Shown here: piece by piece, positions 124-7,662 of the stretch
How positions within the stretch are numbered: position 1 is the stretch's first letter
Layout: every line of letters starts with the position of its first letter
From: Trueperaceae bacterium
GTDB taxonomy: Bacteria > Deinococcota > Deinococci > Deinococcales > Trueperaceae
Length of the DNA stretch: 64,000 nucleotides
Assembly: GCA_020354625.1 (NCBI GenBank)
Contig: CP070651.1
Location: forward strand, 1,561,519-1,625,518
Direction: 5' to 3'
Notes under the pieces: model-generated
Told to the model about the DNA's origin: nothing
The model's input: the letters and a program-made list of their open reading frames with translations, nothing else
Database searches by the model: none
Program-made: the position numbers and the translations under genes

Positions 124-861
124 TCAGAGCCCCGCGAAACGCTCGATCGTCGTTCTGATCCCGGGGTCACTCGTCCGGCTCTGACCACAGATCGTGCCGT
201 CGCGTAGGAAGACGATGCGATCAGCACAGAGGGCGGCATGGGGGTCGTGTGTAACCATGATGACCGTCCACTGCTCTTCTCGGACACCCCTTTGCAGGAT
301 TTCGAGCACGAGAGCACCCGAACGACTATCCAGGTTACCGGTCGGTTCGTCCGCGAGGATGACGGCGGGACGGTTGATGAGAGCTCGAGCCAGCGCGACC
401 CGTTGGCGTTCTCCTCCTGAGAGTTGCCGCGGCCGGTGTCCCAGCCTCTCGTGAATGCCGAGCCTTCGGGCCAAGTTCCCAAGACGCTTTTCTCCTTCGC
501 TTCTCTGCTTATTGATTTCGGCTGGCAGCAAGATGTTTTCTGCAGCACTCAGGTTGGGGATGAGTTCAAAGCTTTGAAATACGAAGCCGAGTTTCTCTCT
601 GCGAAGTATGGTCAAAGTGTCGTCATCGAGCTGATGCGTCTGCTGACCATCCAGAACAACCTCGCCGTGATCGGGTGCGTCCAAGAGCCCCAGTAGGTGT
701 AAGAGGGTGCTCTTTCCGCTGCCACTTGGACCCATCACGGCAAGGAACTCGCCCCTTTGAACTTCGAGATCCACGTTTGCCAGTGCTTGAACCGTGACCT
801 CGCCAAAAGGGTAGCTCTTAGATAGGCCGGTGGCCCTGAGGGGAATATCGTCAATTTTCAT
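124..861 (-). CDS. ABC transporter ATP-binding protein, LolD/MacB type
   Basis: This 245-residue ATPase powers the FtsX-type permease encoded 3 nt upstream. Visible motifs are Walker A GPSGSGKST (residues 44-52), Q-loop FVFQ (93-96), signature LSGGE (147-151), Walker B ILADEP with GNLD after it (168-178) and the H-loop THD (204-206). The length and the ADEPTGNLD wording fit the LolD/MacB/FtsE group of exporters that move lipids, lipoproteins or peptides from the inner membrane rather than importers. It is the last gene of a minus-strand operon that begins with a sphingoid-base synthase, so a lipid substrate is a reasonable inference, but a peptide or drug substrate cannot be excluded. Family call is secure; substrate is not. 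Confidence 0.93.
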   Translation of the reverse strand: MKIDDIPLRATGLSKSYPFGEVTVQALANVDLEVQRGEFLAVMGPSGSGKSTLLHLLGLLDAPDHGEVVLDGQQTHQLDDDTLTILRREKLGFVFQSFELIPNLSAAENILLPAEINKQRSEGEKRLGNLARRLGIHERLGHRPRQLSGGERQRVALARALINRPAVILADEPTGNLDSRSGALVLEILQRGVREEQWTVIMVTHDPHAALCADRIVFLRDGTICGQSRTSDPGIRTTIERFAGL

Positions 862-864
862 ACG

Positions 865-3423
865 CTACTCTCCCAGTCCGAGTGCGGTAATCGGTGCGAG
901 CCTGGCGGCACGACGTGCCGGTACCGTGGCTGCGAACACGCCGATCAGGGGAGCACCGGCTAGGGACAACAGCGCTAGGTACCAGGGGTAGACCGCTTCT
1001 AGTGGAAACCCGGTGAGCGCGCTCGCACCAACGGTGATGGTTTTCGCCAGTAAGAATCCACAAGCGGTTCCGAGGACGCAGCCGATGATAGTGACTACGA
1101 TGCTCTCGGTGATGATCAGCAAGCTCACCCCCCGTCGTTTTAGGCCTAGCGCCCGTAACACCGCAATCTCTTTTTTGCGTTCTGATAGATTCATTCCGAG
1201 CGTATTTGTCACCCCGAGGGCTGCGATCAGCACCGTGAGCAATAATAGGCCGTTGGTGGTCGCAAAGGTCTGCCGCGTCAGTTTGACGATCCGCTCCCGG
1301 TAGCTCTGGTTGAGGCTGATATCGAGGTGGAGATTGGGAAACGCCGACGATAATTCTCTTTTGATCGAATTAGGATCCTCTCCCTCGGCGACTGTTGCCA
1401 CGAAGAGATCGGGGGTGCCACCGCCGAAGCGTGGTAGTTCATCGAGGCTGCCGATCAACGCTTCGCCACCACCAGTAAAATCGACGATGACACCGGAGAT
1501 TTCAAACGGTTCGAAGCCGTTGTCTGTTCGCAATTCTACCTGAGAACCCCGTTCGAGATCGAATCGCTCCCGCATCGTGTTACCAGCTAGAAGCCTCTCT
1601 CCCTCCGTCAAGGCACGATGGCCCGAAGAATGATCTCCCTGTCCAGGGAGATATTGAAACTTTCCGAATCCTGTTTGTGGGTCGAATCTGGCTGGATCGA
1701 CGAGTACCAAGCTAATACTTTTTCCCCGGGCGAATGCTTCGCTGCGAAAACGGACGACGCGTACGGCTACTCCGCTCATCGCCTCGATTGCTGGTAATGC
1801 ATCCCGCGCCTGTTTCTCGAACCCGTGAGGGAAGTTTACCGGCGCCGTAATGAACAGGTCACCAACGATTGTGGTGTCGATCCAGGTTTTGATCGAGGCG
1901 TTGATGCCGGCGACCATAGCCCCGACACCGATAATGAGTCCCATCGAAACGGTCACGATCCCGATGGCAACCCCGTTGCGGGAAGCATTTCGAACCGTGA
2001 AATTGATGCCTATTCGTCCTGAAACTCCAAGAAGCCTGACTATCACGGGGCTAAGGATCAAAAGCGCCGGTCTGAGTAGATAGGGTGCGCTAAGACTGAT
2101 TCCGGCGAAGAAACCACCCAGTGCGGCTGCGCTACCGACGAGAGCCCACAAACCCGTCCACGGGAGGATGCCAAAGAGCGTTGCCAGACCGAGTAACCAT
2201 AGACCCAAGGGGCTAGGAGGATGGGTCGAAGATAGGTGCGTCGCCTGATTCGAAGCGAGCAGTGGTGTGGTTTGGGAGGCCTTACTCGCCGGCAAGACAC
2301 CAGCGAGCAGAGAGATGAGGACGCCGCTTACGCTTGCAACGGCAACGCTTCGTAGAGGAATGACCAGAGTACGCATCTCGAAACCGAGGCTCCAGGCGTT
2401 CACTCTGGTGATGGTGTATGCCAGTCCAGTACCCAATAGCAGTCCCAAGGCGAGACCGAGGAGGCTGACGACTGCAGCATCATACAGTGCGAGTCTTCGC
2501 ACCTCTTTGCGCGTCAAGCAGATGGTTCTGAGAAGGGCATATTCCCGGGTTCGCTCGACGACCGTTGCAGCAAAGGTGTTGTAAGCGATAAACCCCGCAA
2601 CGGCCAGGAGAATCACCGCGAGGATGGTTAGTCCCGATTGCAGTGTCTCCACGATCCCGGTAGCGATATTGCCGCTGATGGCTGGGAAAGTGACCACAAA
2701 GTCCGGTTCGAGAAGTTCTCCGAGTCGCTGCTGAACCTGGCTGACAACTGCTTCCGATGTCGTGTGCACTTCCAGATAGGAAGCCCGATCCTCTAAGTGG
2801 AGACCCTTTTGTAGATCGTGCAGATGGACGATGCCGATCCTGCCGCCGTTTGTCGAGGCGTAGCCATATCCGTCGTCGAGGGTCGCAGTAACTGTGAAGC
2901 TCAACTCGCCAACGTGGGTTGCAAAGCGCACAGCTGTGCCGAGCTCGAGATCCCTCAGATCCGCAAAGCCGACCGGTACCGCGATACCGTACGAACCAGC
3001 TGCAGGTAGCGTTCCCTCGACAACGCGGATGGGCACGGTCTTCGATGTCAGGCGTCCGGATAGTTCGAACCCCGTATCCACCCCTGGTAGGAGGGAGGTC
3101 GGAGCGCGACCGAGGTCGCGGCTCGGTTCGGCCCGGAAGTTGAGTACCGGTACCACCTCTTGCAGATCGGCGCTCCCGCTCGCCAGCGCCAAAGCGTCGC
3201 GGTAGGCAAATACAGCACGTTGCCCAGAGCCAGGAAGGACGAGCAGATCAGAGCTTCCGGCTGCTGCCTTCAATGAGCTCCGTAGGTTGGCCTCGACATT
3301 GTCTCCGATCGAGAGCGTGGCCAACACAGCGGCGATTCCGAGTCCCACACCGATGGCCGTGGTGAGGCTGCGCCAGGGATGGCGGAGGACGTTGCGCAGT
3401 GCGAAAAGTATCAGCACATCCAC
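865..3423 (-). CDS. ABC transporter permease with two FtsX domains
   Basis: An 852-residue integral membrane protein of the two-FtsX-domain (SalY/ADOP-like) type. It has an N-terminal TM helix (about residues 15-40), a large extracytoplasmic domain, a block of TM helices near 265-400, further TM segments near 400-500, a second large external domain and a final three-helix FtsX block (about 725-850). I chose GTG at 3423, preceded by a GGAG ribosome site in minus orientation. Its stop lies 3 nt before the ATPase start, so the two form one exporter. Unlike importers there is no substrate-binding protein nearby. Upstream operon genes are a flippase-like protein and a putative sphingolipid pathway. 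Substrate inferred only from context. Confidence 0.9.
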   Translation of the reverse strand: MDVLILFALRNVLRHPWRSLTTAIGVGLGIAAVLATLSIGDNVEANLRSSLKAAAGSSDLLVLPGSGQRAVFAYRDALALASGSADLQEVVPVLNFRAEPSRDLGRAPTSLLPGVDTGFELSGRLTSKTVPIRVVEGTLPAAGSYGIAVPVGFADLRDLELGTAVRFATHVGELSFTVTATLDDGYGYASTNGGRIGIVHLHDLQKGLHLEDRASYLEVHTTSEAVVSQVQQRLGELLEPDFVVTFPAISGNIATGIVETLQSGLTILAVILLAVAGFIAYNTFAATVVERTREYALLRTICLTRKEVRRLALYDAAVVSLLGLALGLLLGTGLAYTITRVNAWSLGFEMRTLVIPLRSVAVASVSGVLISLLAGVLPASKASQTTPLLASNQATHLSSTHPPSPLGLWLLGLATLFGILPWTGLWALVGSAAALGGFFAGISLSAPYLLRPALLILSPVIVRLLGVSGRIGINFTVRNASRNGVAIGIVTVSMGLIIGVGAMVAGINASIKTWIDTTIVGDLFITAPVNFPHGFEKQARDALPAIEAMSGVAVRVVRFRSEAFARGKSISLVLVDPARFDPQTGFGKFQYLPGQGDHSSGHRALTEGERLLAGNTMRERFDLERGSQVELRTDNGFEPFEISGVIVDFTGGGEALIGSLDELPRFGGGTPDLFVATVAEGEDPNSIKRELSSAFPNLHLDISLNQSYRERIVKLTRQTFATTNGLLLLTVLIAALGVTNTLGMNLSERKKEIAVLRALGLKRRGVSLLIITESIVVTIIGCVLGTACGFLLAKTITVGASALTGFPLEAVYPWYLALLSLAGAPLIGVFAATVPARRAARLAPITALGLGE

Positions 3424-3472
3424 GATCTCCAGTGTAACGATGACGACCTAAAAAAGACTCCGTTTTAGGCTG

Positions 3473-4501
3473 CTATTGGCGGTTCTTACTGCTGTTGGCA
3501 AATGATCTGGTTTCAGATCTGCTCTTGGTTGTGCTCAAAATGGCGAAGCCTCCGATAAGGGGCCCGAGCAGAAAATAGGAGTAGTGATTGAAAAAGCGCC
3601 AAAGAATAACGCTCGTTGCAAGGAGATTTGCCGCCAATTCCCCTTTGAGTGCATAACTGATCGTGGCTTCGTGATATCCGCTTGCGCCCGGTGTCGGTAC
3701 CAAGAAGGCGAAGGAGTGGATGATGATCTGCAACGCGAGGACGACCGACTGGGTAATGGTCACGCCGAGGGCTAATAGAACGATGTTGAGAACCATGTAG
3801 AAACAGAGTCGAGCAGTGCCTGAGATTAGGTGGAACACCAGGTGCCAAGAGAGCGACTCTTCGGCGAACTTTTCACTAGCCAGCTCCAAGTTTTGAAGGA
3901 ACAACTGGCTCCGGCCACGTAACCGCTGAAAGATCCTCAAATTGAAGATTCGCTTTAGCAGTCTGATTGCCAAGCTGAAACGGAACACGAGGAGATAGCT
4001 GCCTAAAAGAGCCAATCCCGACAAGGTGAAGATCAGGGTTGAGAGGTAAGGGATGGGCAGGGACATGCCCGACACTTTGAGGATCACGAGCGAGGCTGGC
4101 AGCGCCCAAGCGAAAAAAGCCATGTCACCGACCACGTACATGACGGATATGGCGGCGGCATTTTCAGGCGAGACGCCAAATCGCATGAGGATCAGTGCCA
4201 GACCCAACGAGTTTCCACCTCCGGCCGGGGTGAGCACGGCGCTAAAAACGCCGACGACATGGGTTTGAATGGCTTGCCAGAGATTCAAACGTGATCCGGT
4301 GCAGCGAGCAAGGAGGACTGTGCGGTAGCCGGCTAAAAACCACCACGCCAGGATGGTAAGAGGTGCAAGCAGGAATAGTTGGACATCGACGTGCTTGATG
4401 GCAGATACGATCTCCTGCGTGAAGAGATTTGGTGTGACCAGGTAGAGACTACCCACTCCCAAGGCTAATGAGACGAGTAGGACCTGCCCGAAGCGGAGCA
4501 C
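3473..4501 (-). CDS. LPG_synthase_TM (UPF0104) flippase-like membrane protein
   Basis: A 342-residue polytopic protein with about eight hydrophobic segments. The family fingerprints are a TPAGGG stretch (about residues 92-97) and a VPTPGASGYHEA stretch (about 267-278), both typical of the lysylphosphatidylglycerol-synthase transmembrane domain and AglD/YbhN-like proteins, which translocate or modify lipids. The C-terminal synthase domain of MprF is absent, so it should not be called an LPG synthase. The start is GTG at 4501. It lies 43 nt after the GNAT gene and 49 nt before the FtsX permease in one operon. A role in flipping a sphingolipid or a polyprenyl-linked sugar is inferred; neither is shown by the sequence. 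Confidence 0.82.
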   Translation of the reverse strand: MLRFGQVLLVSLALGVGSLYLVTPNLFTQEIVSAIKHVDVQLFLLAPLTILAWWFLAGYRTVLLARCTGSRLNLWQAIQTHVVGVFSAVLTPAGGGNSLGLALILMRFGVSPENAAAISVMYVVGDMAFFAWALPASLVILKVSGMSLPIPYLSTLIFTLSGLALLGSYLLVFRFSLAIRLLKRIFNLRIFQRLRGRSQLFLQNLELASEKFAEESLSWHLVFHLISGTARLCFYMVLNIVLLALGVTITQSVVLALQIIIHSFAFLVPTPGASGYHEATISYALKGELAANLLATSVILWRFFNHYSYFLLGPLIGGFAILSTTKSRSETRSFANSSKNRQ

Positions 4502-4544
4502 GATTCAACCCCCAGATCGTGAGTGAGTCGGAGTGTGAGTCCGG

Positions 4545-5666
4545 TCATGTGAGAGCCAGCGGTTTCTGATAGAGCCGGTAGGTTTTGTAGAGGGTCGCTA
4601 CTTCGCTGGCCTCGATGGCTCTATTCATCGAAGTGTTATCTTCGAGAATCCAACTGCACTCACCGGCGCGAATCCCACGCTCTTTCGCCCTGCGACTTAC
4701 TTCGTCCATAAGCACGAGCTCGAGGCCTTTATTGCGGAATTCTGGCAACACTCCGAGCACCGCTAGTCTGGCACGGTCGATGGTCTTTTTGCGATTGAGG
4801 AGATGGAAGATGCCGAATGGGAACAGCCTGCCGTTGAACCGTATCAATACTTGGTTGATGTCTGGAATGGTCAGGCAAAGACCGGCGAGGTCCCCGTCTA
4901 CCTCGACGAACAGAACGAGTTCGGGATCTACGATGAGCTTCAAGTCTTTGGCCATGTGTTCGAACTCTTTGTCGGTATATTTTACAAAGCCCCAATTCTT
5001 TTCCCAGACCGAGTTATAGAAGGTTTTGAGGATGTCGATCTCGCGTCGGAAGTTGCGCATGTCGGCTGGGCGAATCAGAGGTTTGTAGCGTTCTTTGACT
5101 CGCTTGGCGAGTCGTAAAAGTCGATCGGTAGGCCCCTTGGCCACGTCGAAGTGCCAGGCAAACAGATCCTTGACCTTCTGGTAGCCGGCAGATTCGACAA
5201 ACGCTGGGTATTCGGGTGGATTTTGAGGCATCATGACGTATGGAGGGGTATCGAAGCCATCGATTTGAAACCCGGCTCCGTCATTCATACTCGGGTTGGT
5301 CGGTCCCCTGACTGCCTGCCGCCCTAGCGAAACGGCTTCCTTCTCAACCGTCGCCAAGAGCTGGTGGGCGCACGCTTCATCTTCCGCTTCGAAAAAGCCG
5401 AAAAAGAGGAGGTTGTCGTTGTGCGTTCGGTTGTGGTTGTCATCATCGATCGCGGCGATGCGCCCTACTACCTCTCCTGCTCTAATCGCGAGATATTGGC
5501 TGATGCGTGCATGTTCGAAAAACGGATTCCGTTTGGGGTCGAATTTCTCCCTTTCACCCATGACGAGCGGTGGAACCCACACATCGAGCCCCCTGTACTT
5601 TCGGTACGGGTACTCGATGAACCGTTTCTGGTCGCGGCGGGACGCCACCTTTTGCACGGTGACCAT
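4545..5666 (-). CDS. GNAT-fold protein of the YghO family, candidate bacterial ceramide synthase
   Basis: This 373-residue protein belongs to the YghO-like group: an N-terminal YPxRKYRG / VPP segment (residues 20-35), a central VRGPTNPSMND motif (about 119-129), and a C-terminal acyl-CoA N-acyltransferase (GNAT) region with FRNKGLE and the final ECSWILEDN segment (about 310-350). As I recall the literature, a GNAT-family protein of this type acts as bacterial ceramide synthase (bCerS) in Caulobacter, joining an acyl-CoA to a sphingoid base. The gene starts 7 nt after the stop of a serine-palmitoyltransferase-like gene, the arrangement expected for that role. Function is therefore a context-based inference; the domain assignment is strong. 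The ceramide reductase and dedicated acyl carrier protein are not in this window. Confidence 0.78.
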   Translation of the reverse strand: MVTVQKVASRRDQKRFIEYPYRKYRGLDVWVPPLVMGEREKFDPKRNPFFEHARISQYLAIRAGEVVGRIAAIDDDNHNRTHNDNLLFFGFFEAEDEACAHQLLATVEKEAVSLGRQAVRGPTNPSMNDGAGFQIDGFDTPPYVMMPQNPPEYPAFVESAGYQKVKDLFAWHFDVAKGPTDRLLRLAKRVKERYKPLIRPADMRNFRREIDILKTFYNSVWEKNWGFVKYTDKEFEHMAKDLKLIVDPELVLFVEVDGDLAGLCLTIPDINQVLIRFNGRLFPFGIFHLLNRKKTIDRARLAVLGVLPEFRNKGLELVLMDEVSRRAKERGIRAGECSWILEDNTSMNRAIEASEVATLYKTYRLYQKPLALT

Positions 5667-5673
5667 GTCCGGA

Positions 5674-6945
5674 TCAGCTAATCACGTCAAGCTGCTTGCC
5701 GACCGATTCAAAGGCGTCTAGGAGTCGGTCGAGTTGCTCCGGTGTATGGTTGGCGTTTACGCTGGTCCGGATGATGGCGCGACCAGCTGGTACGCTCGGC
5801 GAAATAGCTGGCGTGGTGAAAACGCCCTCTTCCCAGAGACCTTTCCAGAACATCCCTGTTAGAATCTCTGGTCCGATGAGAACCGGCACGATTGGACTTT
5901 CCGAACCGAGTGTGTCGAAGCCGAGATTCTTGAGACCTTGCTGCAGGATGTCGACATTTTGCCAAAGACGCGCTTGATGCTCTGGCTCGGTCTCCATAAT
6001 CTCTAGGGCTTTCAGGGTAGTTGCCACCTGCATGGCGGGTAGGGCGGCTGTGAAGATGAAAGGACGGGCGTGGTTCTTGACGTAATGTACGATCTTTCGA
6101 TCACCGGCAAGGAATCCGCCTACGCTCGCAAAAGATTTCGAAAAGGTGCCGACGATGAGATCGACCTGTTCGGTCAATCCGTAGTGATCGGAGGTGCCCC
6201 GACCGTTTTCCCCCAACACTCCTGTGCTGTGGGCATCGTCAACAACGAGTCTGGCATTGTACCGCTTAGCGATTTCGAGTAGGCCCGGGAGCTTGGCGAT
6301 ATGGCCGCTCATGGAAAAGATGCCATCGGTGACGATCATCCTTCCACCCGGCTTATCGAGATCTTTTCTGAGTGCCTGTTCGAGACTTTCGAGATCGCTG
6401 TGTTCGTACTTGCGAAGGGTAGCGAACGACAATCGGGCGCCGTCGTATAGGCTGGCGTGGTTTTCCCGGTCGTAATAGATGATGTCGCGCCTACCGGCAA
6501 GGGCGCTGACTACTGATAGGCAACCTAAGTAGCCTGCACTGAAGGTAAGAGCGGATTCCTTGCCGAGAAACTTGGCAAGGCTTTCTTCGAGCTTTTCGTG
6601 AAGCGTCAATGTCCCGGTCAGAAAACGTGAACCTGTACAGCTGGTCGAGAAGCTGTCGAGAGCCTTTCTAGCCGCTTCTTTGAGGCGTGGATCTTGTGTG
6701 AGGCCGAGGTAGTCGTTCGACCCTGTGATGACCATCTCTCTGCCGTCGACGCTGACTGTGCCCCCATATTGTGCCTCGATCGCCTTGAAATACGGGTAGA
6801 TGCCGGCAGCCTCCGCCTCTTCTGCCAGGGTGAACTTATGGGCTTTGGCGAAGATGTCAGCCGTTTTGACTTCGGGCATATCGACGAAGCCAACCATATC
6901 TTCGCCGGCTGCTGTCTGTTTCATACTTTTGGCAGAGTCTGACAA
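5674..6945 (-). CDS. Alpha-oxoamine synthase, serine palmitoyltransferase-like
   Basis: A PLP enzyme condensing an amino acid with an acyl thioester. With the TTG start at 6945 it has 423 residues. Motifs are NDYLGL (77-82), SCTGSRFLTGT (102-112), the His of NHASLYDG (163), DDAHSTG (236-242) and the PLP-lysine block GTFSKSFASVGG with Lys270. The GTFSKSFAS wording is that of serine palmitoyltransferases; glycine C-acetyltransferase and KAPA synthases usually have a GTLGKA/G type block. I chose TTG because GGAGGA (6950-6955) sits 4 nt ahead; an internal ATG at 6924 is the alternative. The longer frame to 7209 would overlap the divergent gene and has no support. It is the first gene of the five-gene operon. 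Confidence is high for the family, moderate for the serine/palmitoyl specificity. Confidence 0.83.
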   Translation of the reverse strand: MSDSAKSMKQTAAGEDMVGFVDMPEVKTADIFAKAHKFTLAEEAEAAGIYPYFKAIEAQYGGTVSVDGREMVITGSNDYLGLTQDPRLKEAARKALDSFSTSCTGSRFLTGTLTLHEKLEESLAKFLGKESALTFSAGYLGCLSVVSALAGRRDIIYYDRENHASLYDGARLSFATLRKYEHSDLESLEQALRKDLDKPGGRMIVTDGIFSMSGHIAKLPGLLEIAKRYNARLVVDDAHSTGVLGENGRGTSDHYGLTEQVDLIVGTFSKSFASVGGFLAGDRKIVHYVKNHARPFIFTAALPAMQVATTLKALEIMETEPEHQARLWQNVDILQQGLKNLGFDTLGSESPIVPVLIGPEILTGMFWKGLWEEGVFTTPAISPSVPAGRAIIRTSVNANHTPEQLDRLLDAFESVGKQLDVIS

Positions 6946-6955: not shown

Positions 6956-7131
6956 AATATGAGTCGGGAAAAAACAATGCCGGTACTATAACACGGGTTA
7001 ACGACAGCAGGGTTGTGCCGGCTGGTCGGGGAGGCAGTGTTTTGGATGATCTCTATTTTACGGAGTTCTGGCGACCCTATAGAGTACACTGAAGACTTGA
7101 TGAACCCTACCGTCAGTTGGAAGGGGCAGGG

Positions 7132-7662
7132 GTGATTTTTAGCACCCCCCACACACTTACACGCCCTGCAACGGCAGCCGATGCCGAACTTGTGCACACG
7201 TTGTACCACGGGACTCCAGGGTATTTTGAGATCATCTCCATACCGATCCCAACCCTTTCTGAGGTCAAAACGGAGTTGGCCACTGCTGTTGATGATGCCA
7301 GGCGGTTTACCGAACTCGTTTTATTACCTCCCAAGTTACAGTTTCCGTGGTCCTCGGAAGCGTTGCTCGATCCCTTGTCTGGTCGTCCCGTTGCGGGGTA
7401 TCTCGATTACAAGATCGATTACCCTCTGTCTGGGGATGCCACGGTCAACCTGCTCCTTATCCATAGCGCGGTACAGAACATGGGTGTTGGTCGGCGCTGT
7501 GTACTCGATTTAGAATCTCGGTTGCGGGATAAAGCTAAACGCGTGCTGGCAAGTATTTACGGTCAGAACACGAGGGCGGAGCGTTTTTGGCGCTCTCTCG
7601 GATATCAGTTTGCGATCGATGCCAAACCTGTGCTCGATTGGTACGCCAAGTCGCTGACCTAA
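7132..7662 (+). CDS. GNAT family N-acetyltransferase
   Basis: A 176-residue acetyltransferase if it starts at GTG 7132, where GGAAGGGGCAGGG just upstream can serve as ribosome site; a TTG at 7117 would add five residues. The acetyl-CoA binding motif is visible as a Q-N-M-G-V-G-R-R loop in the second half, followed by a helix (VLDLESRLRDK) and the NTRAERFWRSLGY segment that closes the GNAT fold. The substrate is unknown. It is divergent from the sphingolipid-like operon and convergent with the DegT-type aminotransferase, with only about 40 nt before that gene's stop and no clear terminator there. A TACACT hexamer at 7085-7090 may be its -10 element. Confidence 0.8.
   Translation: MIFSTPHTLTRPATAADAELVHTLYHGTPGYFEIISIPIPTLSEVKTELATAVDDARRFTELVLLPPKLQFPWSSEALLDPLSGRPVAGYLDYKIDYPLSGDATVNLLLIHSAVQNMGVGRRCVLDLESRLRDKAKRVLASIYGQNTRAERFWRSLGYQFAIDAKPVLDWYAKSLT

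Follow-up and report, generated by a model that had tools for sequence, protein, structure and literature searches.

In Caulobacter, Spt and the bacterial ceramide synthase (bCerS) are cytoplasmic, and deletion of cerR causes oxidised ceramide to build up (PMC11087976). The ceramide/phosphosphingolipid region of Caulobacter crescentus, CC_1152-CC_1168 (PMC11324152), has the serine palmitoyltransferase (SPT) and bCerS homologues in common with the Trueperaceae locus described here, and in both cases genes for a putative flippase and for lipid transport are close by. The CerR-type SDR of this region is shared by relatives of our locus but is absent from the locus itself. The Trueperaceae clusters also lack the dedicated ACP, acyl-ACP synthetase, ceramide kinase and LptC2/F2/G2 of Caulobacter and instead carry GT28, CPBP, LPG_TM and FtsX/ATPase genes. 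Adjacent SPT and bCerS genes are likewise found in the SPT-bCerS-CerR clusters of Myxococcus, Ignavibacteria, Gemmatimonadota, Planctomycetota and others, but there the reductase lies alongside, whereas our locus has none. The yghO product of the E. coli cluster (L068) is homologous to our bCerS over its full length; genes for an SPT-like enzyme, an ACP, an epimerase and a fatty acyl-AMP ligase run in the opposite direction to yghO, and LptF/LptG homologues are near.

The nearest named relatives are encoded in the same order on plasmid 1 of Rubrobacter radiotolerans RSPS-4 (L067:10707-14074), with identities of 68% for SPT and 60-61% over the full length for bCerS. A second-type reductase directly follows bCerS on this plasmid, and then an LTA-synthase/sulfatase-family protein. 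The plasmid SPT nests within the Trueperaceae enzymes in our tree, and a Rubrobacter MAG carries a bCerS (57%) and an SDR. These comparisons suggest that the ceramide genes were likely transferred to the plasmid of the Gram-positive Rubrobacter. Type I-D CRISPR genes adjoin SPT-bCerS-SDR on plasmid 1.

A putative five-gene operon in a Trueperaceae genome

The window analysed here is a stretch of 64,000 nucleotides (1561519-1625518) in a single-contig genome of 4,285,982 bases (4.29 Mb; 97.6% complete). The first-pass annotation had called the genome Deinococcota-like, which agrees with its membership of the family Trueperaceae; the host bacterium is a relative of Truepera radiovictrix, a cultured, radiation-resistant species. 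That annotation had also described five minus-strand genes separated by gaps of 7, 43, 49 and 3 nt, and all of these open reading frames were confirmed in place. No terminator-like site was found between the five genes on their own strand, and a sigma-70 promoter scan gave no site above chance. Upstream of the SPT gene lies a divergent GNAT gene (window 7117-7662), which is conserved in this position, with 54-66% identity, in at least seven relatives. We consider the locus to be probably a shortened Trueperaceae cluster of the ceramide or glycosphingolipid type, whose gene identities, tree placements, gene order and missing genes are observed directly and for which we infer the chemical steps and substrates.

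The second gene (4545..5666, minus strand) encodes an acyltransferase of the YghO/bCerS family, of the bacterial ceramide synthase type (373 aa). Its AlphaFold model (pLDDT 90) has a tandem GNAT fold, and the Foldseek matches of the model are tandem GNATs. Over its full length the protein shares 36% identity with E. coli YghO and 37% with the Roseomonas homologue, and it shares 36-45% over the whole length with YghO-family proteins that are encoded together with SPT and CerR. Among 85,000 species genomes scanned, at least 587 relatives were found, and the neighbours of the best 80 loci were examined. Among these 80, an SPT homologue was nearby in 48 and a CerR-type SDR in 45, while GT28/CPBP was found in none and a weak LPG_TM match in one. 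The gene had been annotated as a YghO/GNAT protein resembling ceramide synthase; it is indeed a full-length YghO/bCerS homologue, of a family paired with SPT across phyla, and N-acylation of a long-chain base is its predicted function. Members of the YghO family may also act on other amines. The host genome has two distant YghO/bCerS-like GNAT paralogues beside DUF3419/BtaA-like genes (L044:6602-9641, G000:C1 near 2852500, and L045:5291-10485, near 3640100), and one of the two DUF3419 genes is fused to a phospholipid methyltransferase domain. These paralogues may N-acylate a homoserine-type lipid.

Gene order in related Trueperaceae

At least 18 other Trueperaceae loci have bCerS immediately after SPT on the same strand, a recurrence indicating that the arrangement did not arise by chance. 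The gene order in the relatives, T. radiovictrix included, is SPT, bCerS, CPBP, CerR-like SDR, GT28, LPG_TM, FtsX and ATPase. The series from SPT to the glycosyltransferase is present in 13 related species, most of which have LPG_TM and FtsX downstream. The CPBP gene encodes a CPBP/Rce1-like membrane protein of 240 residues, and the glycosyltransferase is GT28/MGDG-synthase-like. A CerR-like reductase was found in 16 relatives. The closest curated models of this epimerase-family SDR are the 2-alkyl-3-oxoalkanoate reductase OleD (a beta-keto reductase) and HpnA, which suits a 3-oxo substrate, and the protein can be aligned with the cluster-encoded SDRs of E. coli, Streptomyces and Rubrobacter. 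An SDR of a second type comes straight after bCerS in genus g4, as in Rubrobacter. Neither the window operon nor the clusters of the relatives have a dedicated ACP or acyl-ACP synthetase gene beside SPT.

The CerR-like SDR, GT28 and FtsX genes also occur together at G084:C11:272163-276893 and G086:C187:4998-9737, in two genomes where no SPT of the SPT clade was found; given this, the three genes may have a role for another lipid too. In several Trueperaceae, antisense genes are situated between LPG_TM and FtsX (L063:14757-17755, with similar positions in L057 and L059). They encode an Epimerase-adh_short fusion protein (613 aa) and a GT4 glycosyltransferase, which are possibly further sphingolipid-modifying enzymes.

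The flippase-like protein and the ABC transporter

The third gene of the operon (3473..4501, minus strand) encodes an LPG_synthase_TM (LPG_TM), flippase-like membrane protein of 342 aa, which matches PF03706/TIGR00374 with 66 bits against cut-offs of 33 and 43; its match to the GlcN-PG flippase is weak. Of 111 genomes, 23 have LPG_TM, and SPT is also present in 21 of these (Fisher p ~3e-15, relatedness ignored); no LPG_TM homologue was found on plasmids. This co-occurrence makes LPG_TM a good candidate flippase for the lipid. The last two genes encode an FtsX/MacB-type ABC permease (865..3423, minus strand; 852 aa; PF02687, PF12704), with about 10 TM segments by hydropathy, and its partner ATPase (124..861, minus strand; 245 aa; PF00005). 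The ATPase is MacB/LolD-like, scoring 219-225 bits with the MacB and LolD models, under their cut-offs. FtsX was found in 39 genomes, counted like LPG_TM by reading tables; about 19 of them have no SPT, and FtsX is absent from the SPT-bearing family f3.

All three genes had been proposed to serve lipid translocation. The tracking of SPT by LPG_TM speaks for its part in this proposal, whereas the distribution of FtsX/ATPase makes dedicated export doubtful. The first-pass annotation suggested a dedicated exporter that delivers the lipid to the outer membrane; such a role would agree with the arrangement of 11 of the 13 full clusters, where FtsX lies downstream and is co-oriented. We nevertheless regard it as rather unlikely, because about 19 genomes carry the pair without SPT, and the f3 genomes have SPT without FtsX; moreover, antisense genes part FtsX from LPG_TM in some species. 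Judged by its distribution, the FtsX/ATPase pair is more probably an envelope transporter of general use in the Trueperaceae. In T. radiovictrix, an MMPL-family transporter gene directly follows the ATPase gene (L218:2518-4779); similar genes lie close to the cluster in L056 and L051, whereas the window genome has none there.

Three genes absent from the bCerS/LPG_TM junction

The CPBP, CerR-like SDR and GT28 genes, which 13 related species carry between bCerS and LPG_TM, are absent from the 43-nt junction of the window operon (4502..4544, minus strand), the putative gene-loss site according to gene-order comparison. Searches of the host genome with the Trueperaceae-type reductase, a mixed profile, a home-made CerR profile and the Epimerase-SDR fusion of the relatives found no CerR orthologue; the hits were all generic sugar SDRs or classical SDRs. 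The top host SDR on the CerR profile is dTDP-glucose dehydratase-like and scored 126 bits, against 206-312 for true members. No orthologue of the glycosyltransferase was found in the host genome either, where a distant GT28 paralogue reached 100 bits versus mostly 300-668 for cluster members, and none of CPBP, in a search without a positive control of its own. Because the sisters in the SPT tree, G100 and G110, keep CPBP, SDR and GT, loss in the window lineage is the simplest reading.

The ceramide reductase had been expected elsewhere in the genome. This expectation did not hold up: the relatives carry the reductase inside the operon, and its orthologue was not found in the single-contig host genome. 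The host genome does have many classical SDRs, and an unrelated enzyme may thus carry out the reduction; Bacteroides has a KDSR of another kind (PMC11087976). The operon could also be a decaying remnant in an organism that no longer makes finished sphingolipids, since three genes including the reductase gene are gone, yet kept by the sister lineages. We find this improbable: the five remaining frames are intact and near those of the relatives, and ketone reduction is open to many generic SDRs.

The PLP enzyme and its substrate

The first gene of the operon (5674..6945, minus strand; 423 aa) has a TTG start at 6945 with GGAGG upstream and encodes the predicted SPT, the sole match of its kind in the host genome at E <= 1e-20. 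Its best solved relatives in the PDB are Sphingobacterium SPT (383 bits), a Thermus KBL/BioF enzyme (320 bits) and Sphingomonas SPT (272 bits). Among the NCBIfam models, the Bacteroidetes-type SPT model SerpalmtaseCFB ranks first with 458 bits, not reaching its cut-off of 640; SerpalmtaseBetaP gave 378 bits, under its cut-off of 500, and the BioF and KBL models 370-375 bits. Because these models are lineage equivalogs, the scores below cut-off weaken the equivalog label but not the clade placement. In a maximum-likelihood tree of 91 sequences, the window enzyme falls in a clade of 81 rows (support 98/96, bootstrap not fully settled) together with the Sphingomonas, Sphingobacterium and Bacteroides SPTs, and is sister to the enzymes of G100 and G110 (99/94). 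E. coli KBL and BioF, Thermus KBL and, on a long branch, the cysteate acyltransferase CFAT lie outside this clade. The remaining Deinococcota alpha-oxoamine synthases in the tree group with Thermus KBL. The window enzyme has the PLP motif GTFSKS, which is characteristic of SPT (PMC10196870); KBL, BioF and CFAT differ at those residues. It also keeps the active-site residues Asn52, Gly80, Ser81, His138, His213 and Lys244, the catalytic lysine among them, and KBL differs at 80 and 81. The annotation of the gene as SPT-like is thus upheld by the phylogeny, which places the enzyme with the SPTs and apart from KBL and BioF, and by the agreement of the motif. The enzyme belongs to the SPT clade and is a predicted SPT; its amino-acid and acyl specificity lies beyond what sequence can tell.

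The product might be a 1-deoxy or other amino-acid-derived analogue, with an alanine, glycine or cysteate head, and not a true sphinganine lipid. Sphingobacterium SPT also takes L-Ala and Gly, although less efficiently (PMC10196870), and sediments are rich in 1-deoxyceramides and sulfonoceramides (PMC12619533). However, the serine contacts N52, G80, S81 and H138 are retained in the window SPT, and the cysteate enzyme lies outside the SPT clade, on which ground we reject the identification as a cysteate acyltransferase. A79 is replaced by T, a residue also present in the enzymes of the Roseomonas and E. coli clusters. We therefore give such an analogue little weight. That the enzyme is simply an alpha-oxoamine synthase of the KBL or BioF kind in a cluster unrelated to sphingolipids, as its scores with the BioF and KBL models and the Thermus enzyme might suggest, is refuted on sequence to the point of being very improbable, since the tree and GTFSKS, G80 and S81 match SPT, the other Deinococcota enzymes fall with Thermus KBL, and bCerS directly adjoins SPT in 18 related loci. 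Genus g4 has, close to its SPT cluster but on the other strand, a second alpha-oxoamine synthase gene (L053:6908-8059), whose product groups with E. coli KBL in the tree.

Predicted pathway and its significance

As a shortened ceramide cluster, the operon would act as follows. SPT would condense L-serine with a fatty acyl thioester to 3-oxo-sphinganine, which the tandem-GNAT bCerS would N-acylate to 3-oxo-ceramide. In most relatives, the CerR-like SDR would then reduce the 3-oxo group, the GT28/MGDG-synthase-like enzyme would add a sugar, and LPG_TM would flip the resulting lipid to the other side of the inner membrane. For the window organism, either an unrelated SDR would carry out the reduction or the lipid would remain 3-oxo-ceramide. 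FtsX/ATPase, as a general envelope exporter, might or might not have this lipid among its substrates.

To our knowledge, 3-oxo-ceramide in Caulobacter is known solely as an intermediate that accumulates on cerR deletion. A bolder and doubtful reading is that the Trueperaceae possess a self-contained glycosphingolipid module of new architecture (SPT, bCerS, CPBP, reductase, GT28 and LPG_TM), pared down in the window organism so that unreduced, unglycosylated 3-oxo-ceramide would be its final membrane lipid.

The Black Sea has yielded SPT-like genes from 38 phyla, and reports overall cover about 40 (PMC11334938); Deinococcota is not named in the main text of that report, and our literature search found no paper that mentions sphingolipids in either Truepera or Deinococcota. 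The Trueperaceae cluster is a variant of a known pathway and extends the published trend of 38-40 phyla rather than breaking ground. Deinococcota is a phylum with an unusual envelope. If our reading is true, sphingolipid synthesis would be widespread in the Trueperaceae, and the glycosyltransferase and the flippase would be new candidates for glycosphingolipid assembly outside the Proteobacteria. Because T. radiovictrix, a cultured type strain, carries the fuller cluster, the prediction is open to checking in live cells.
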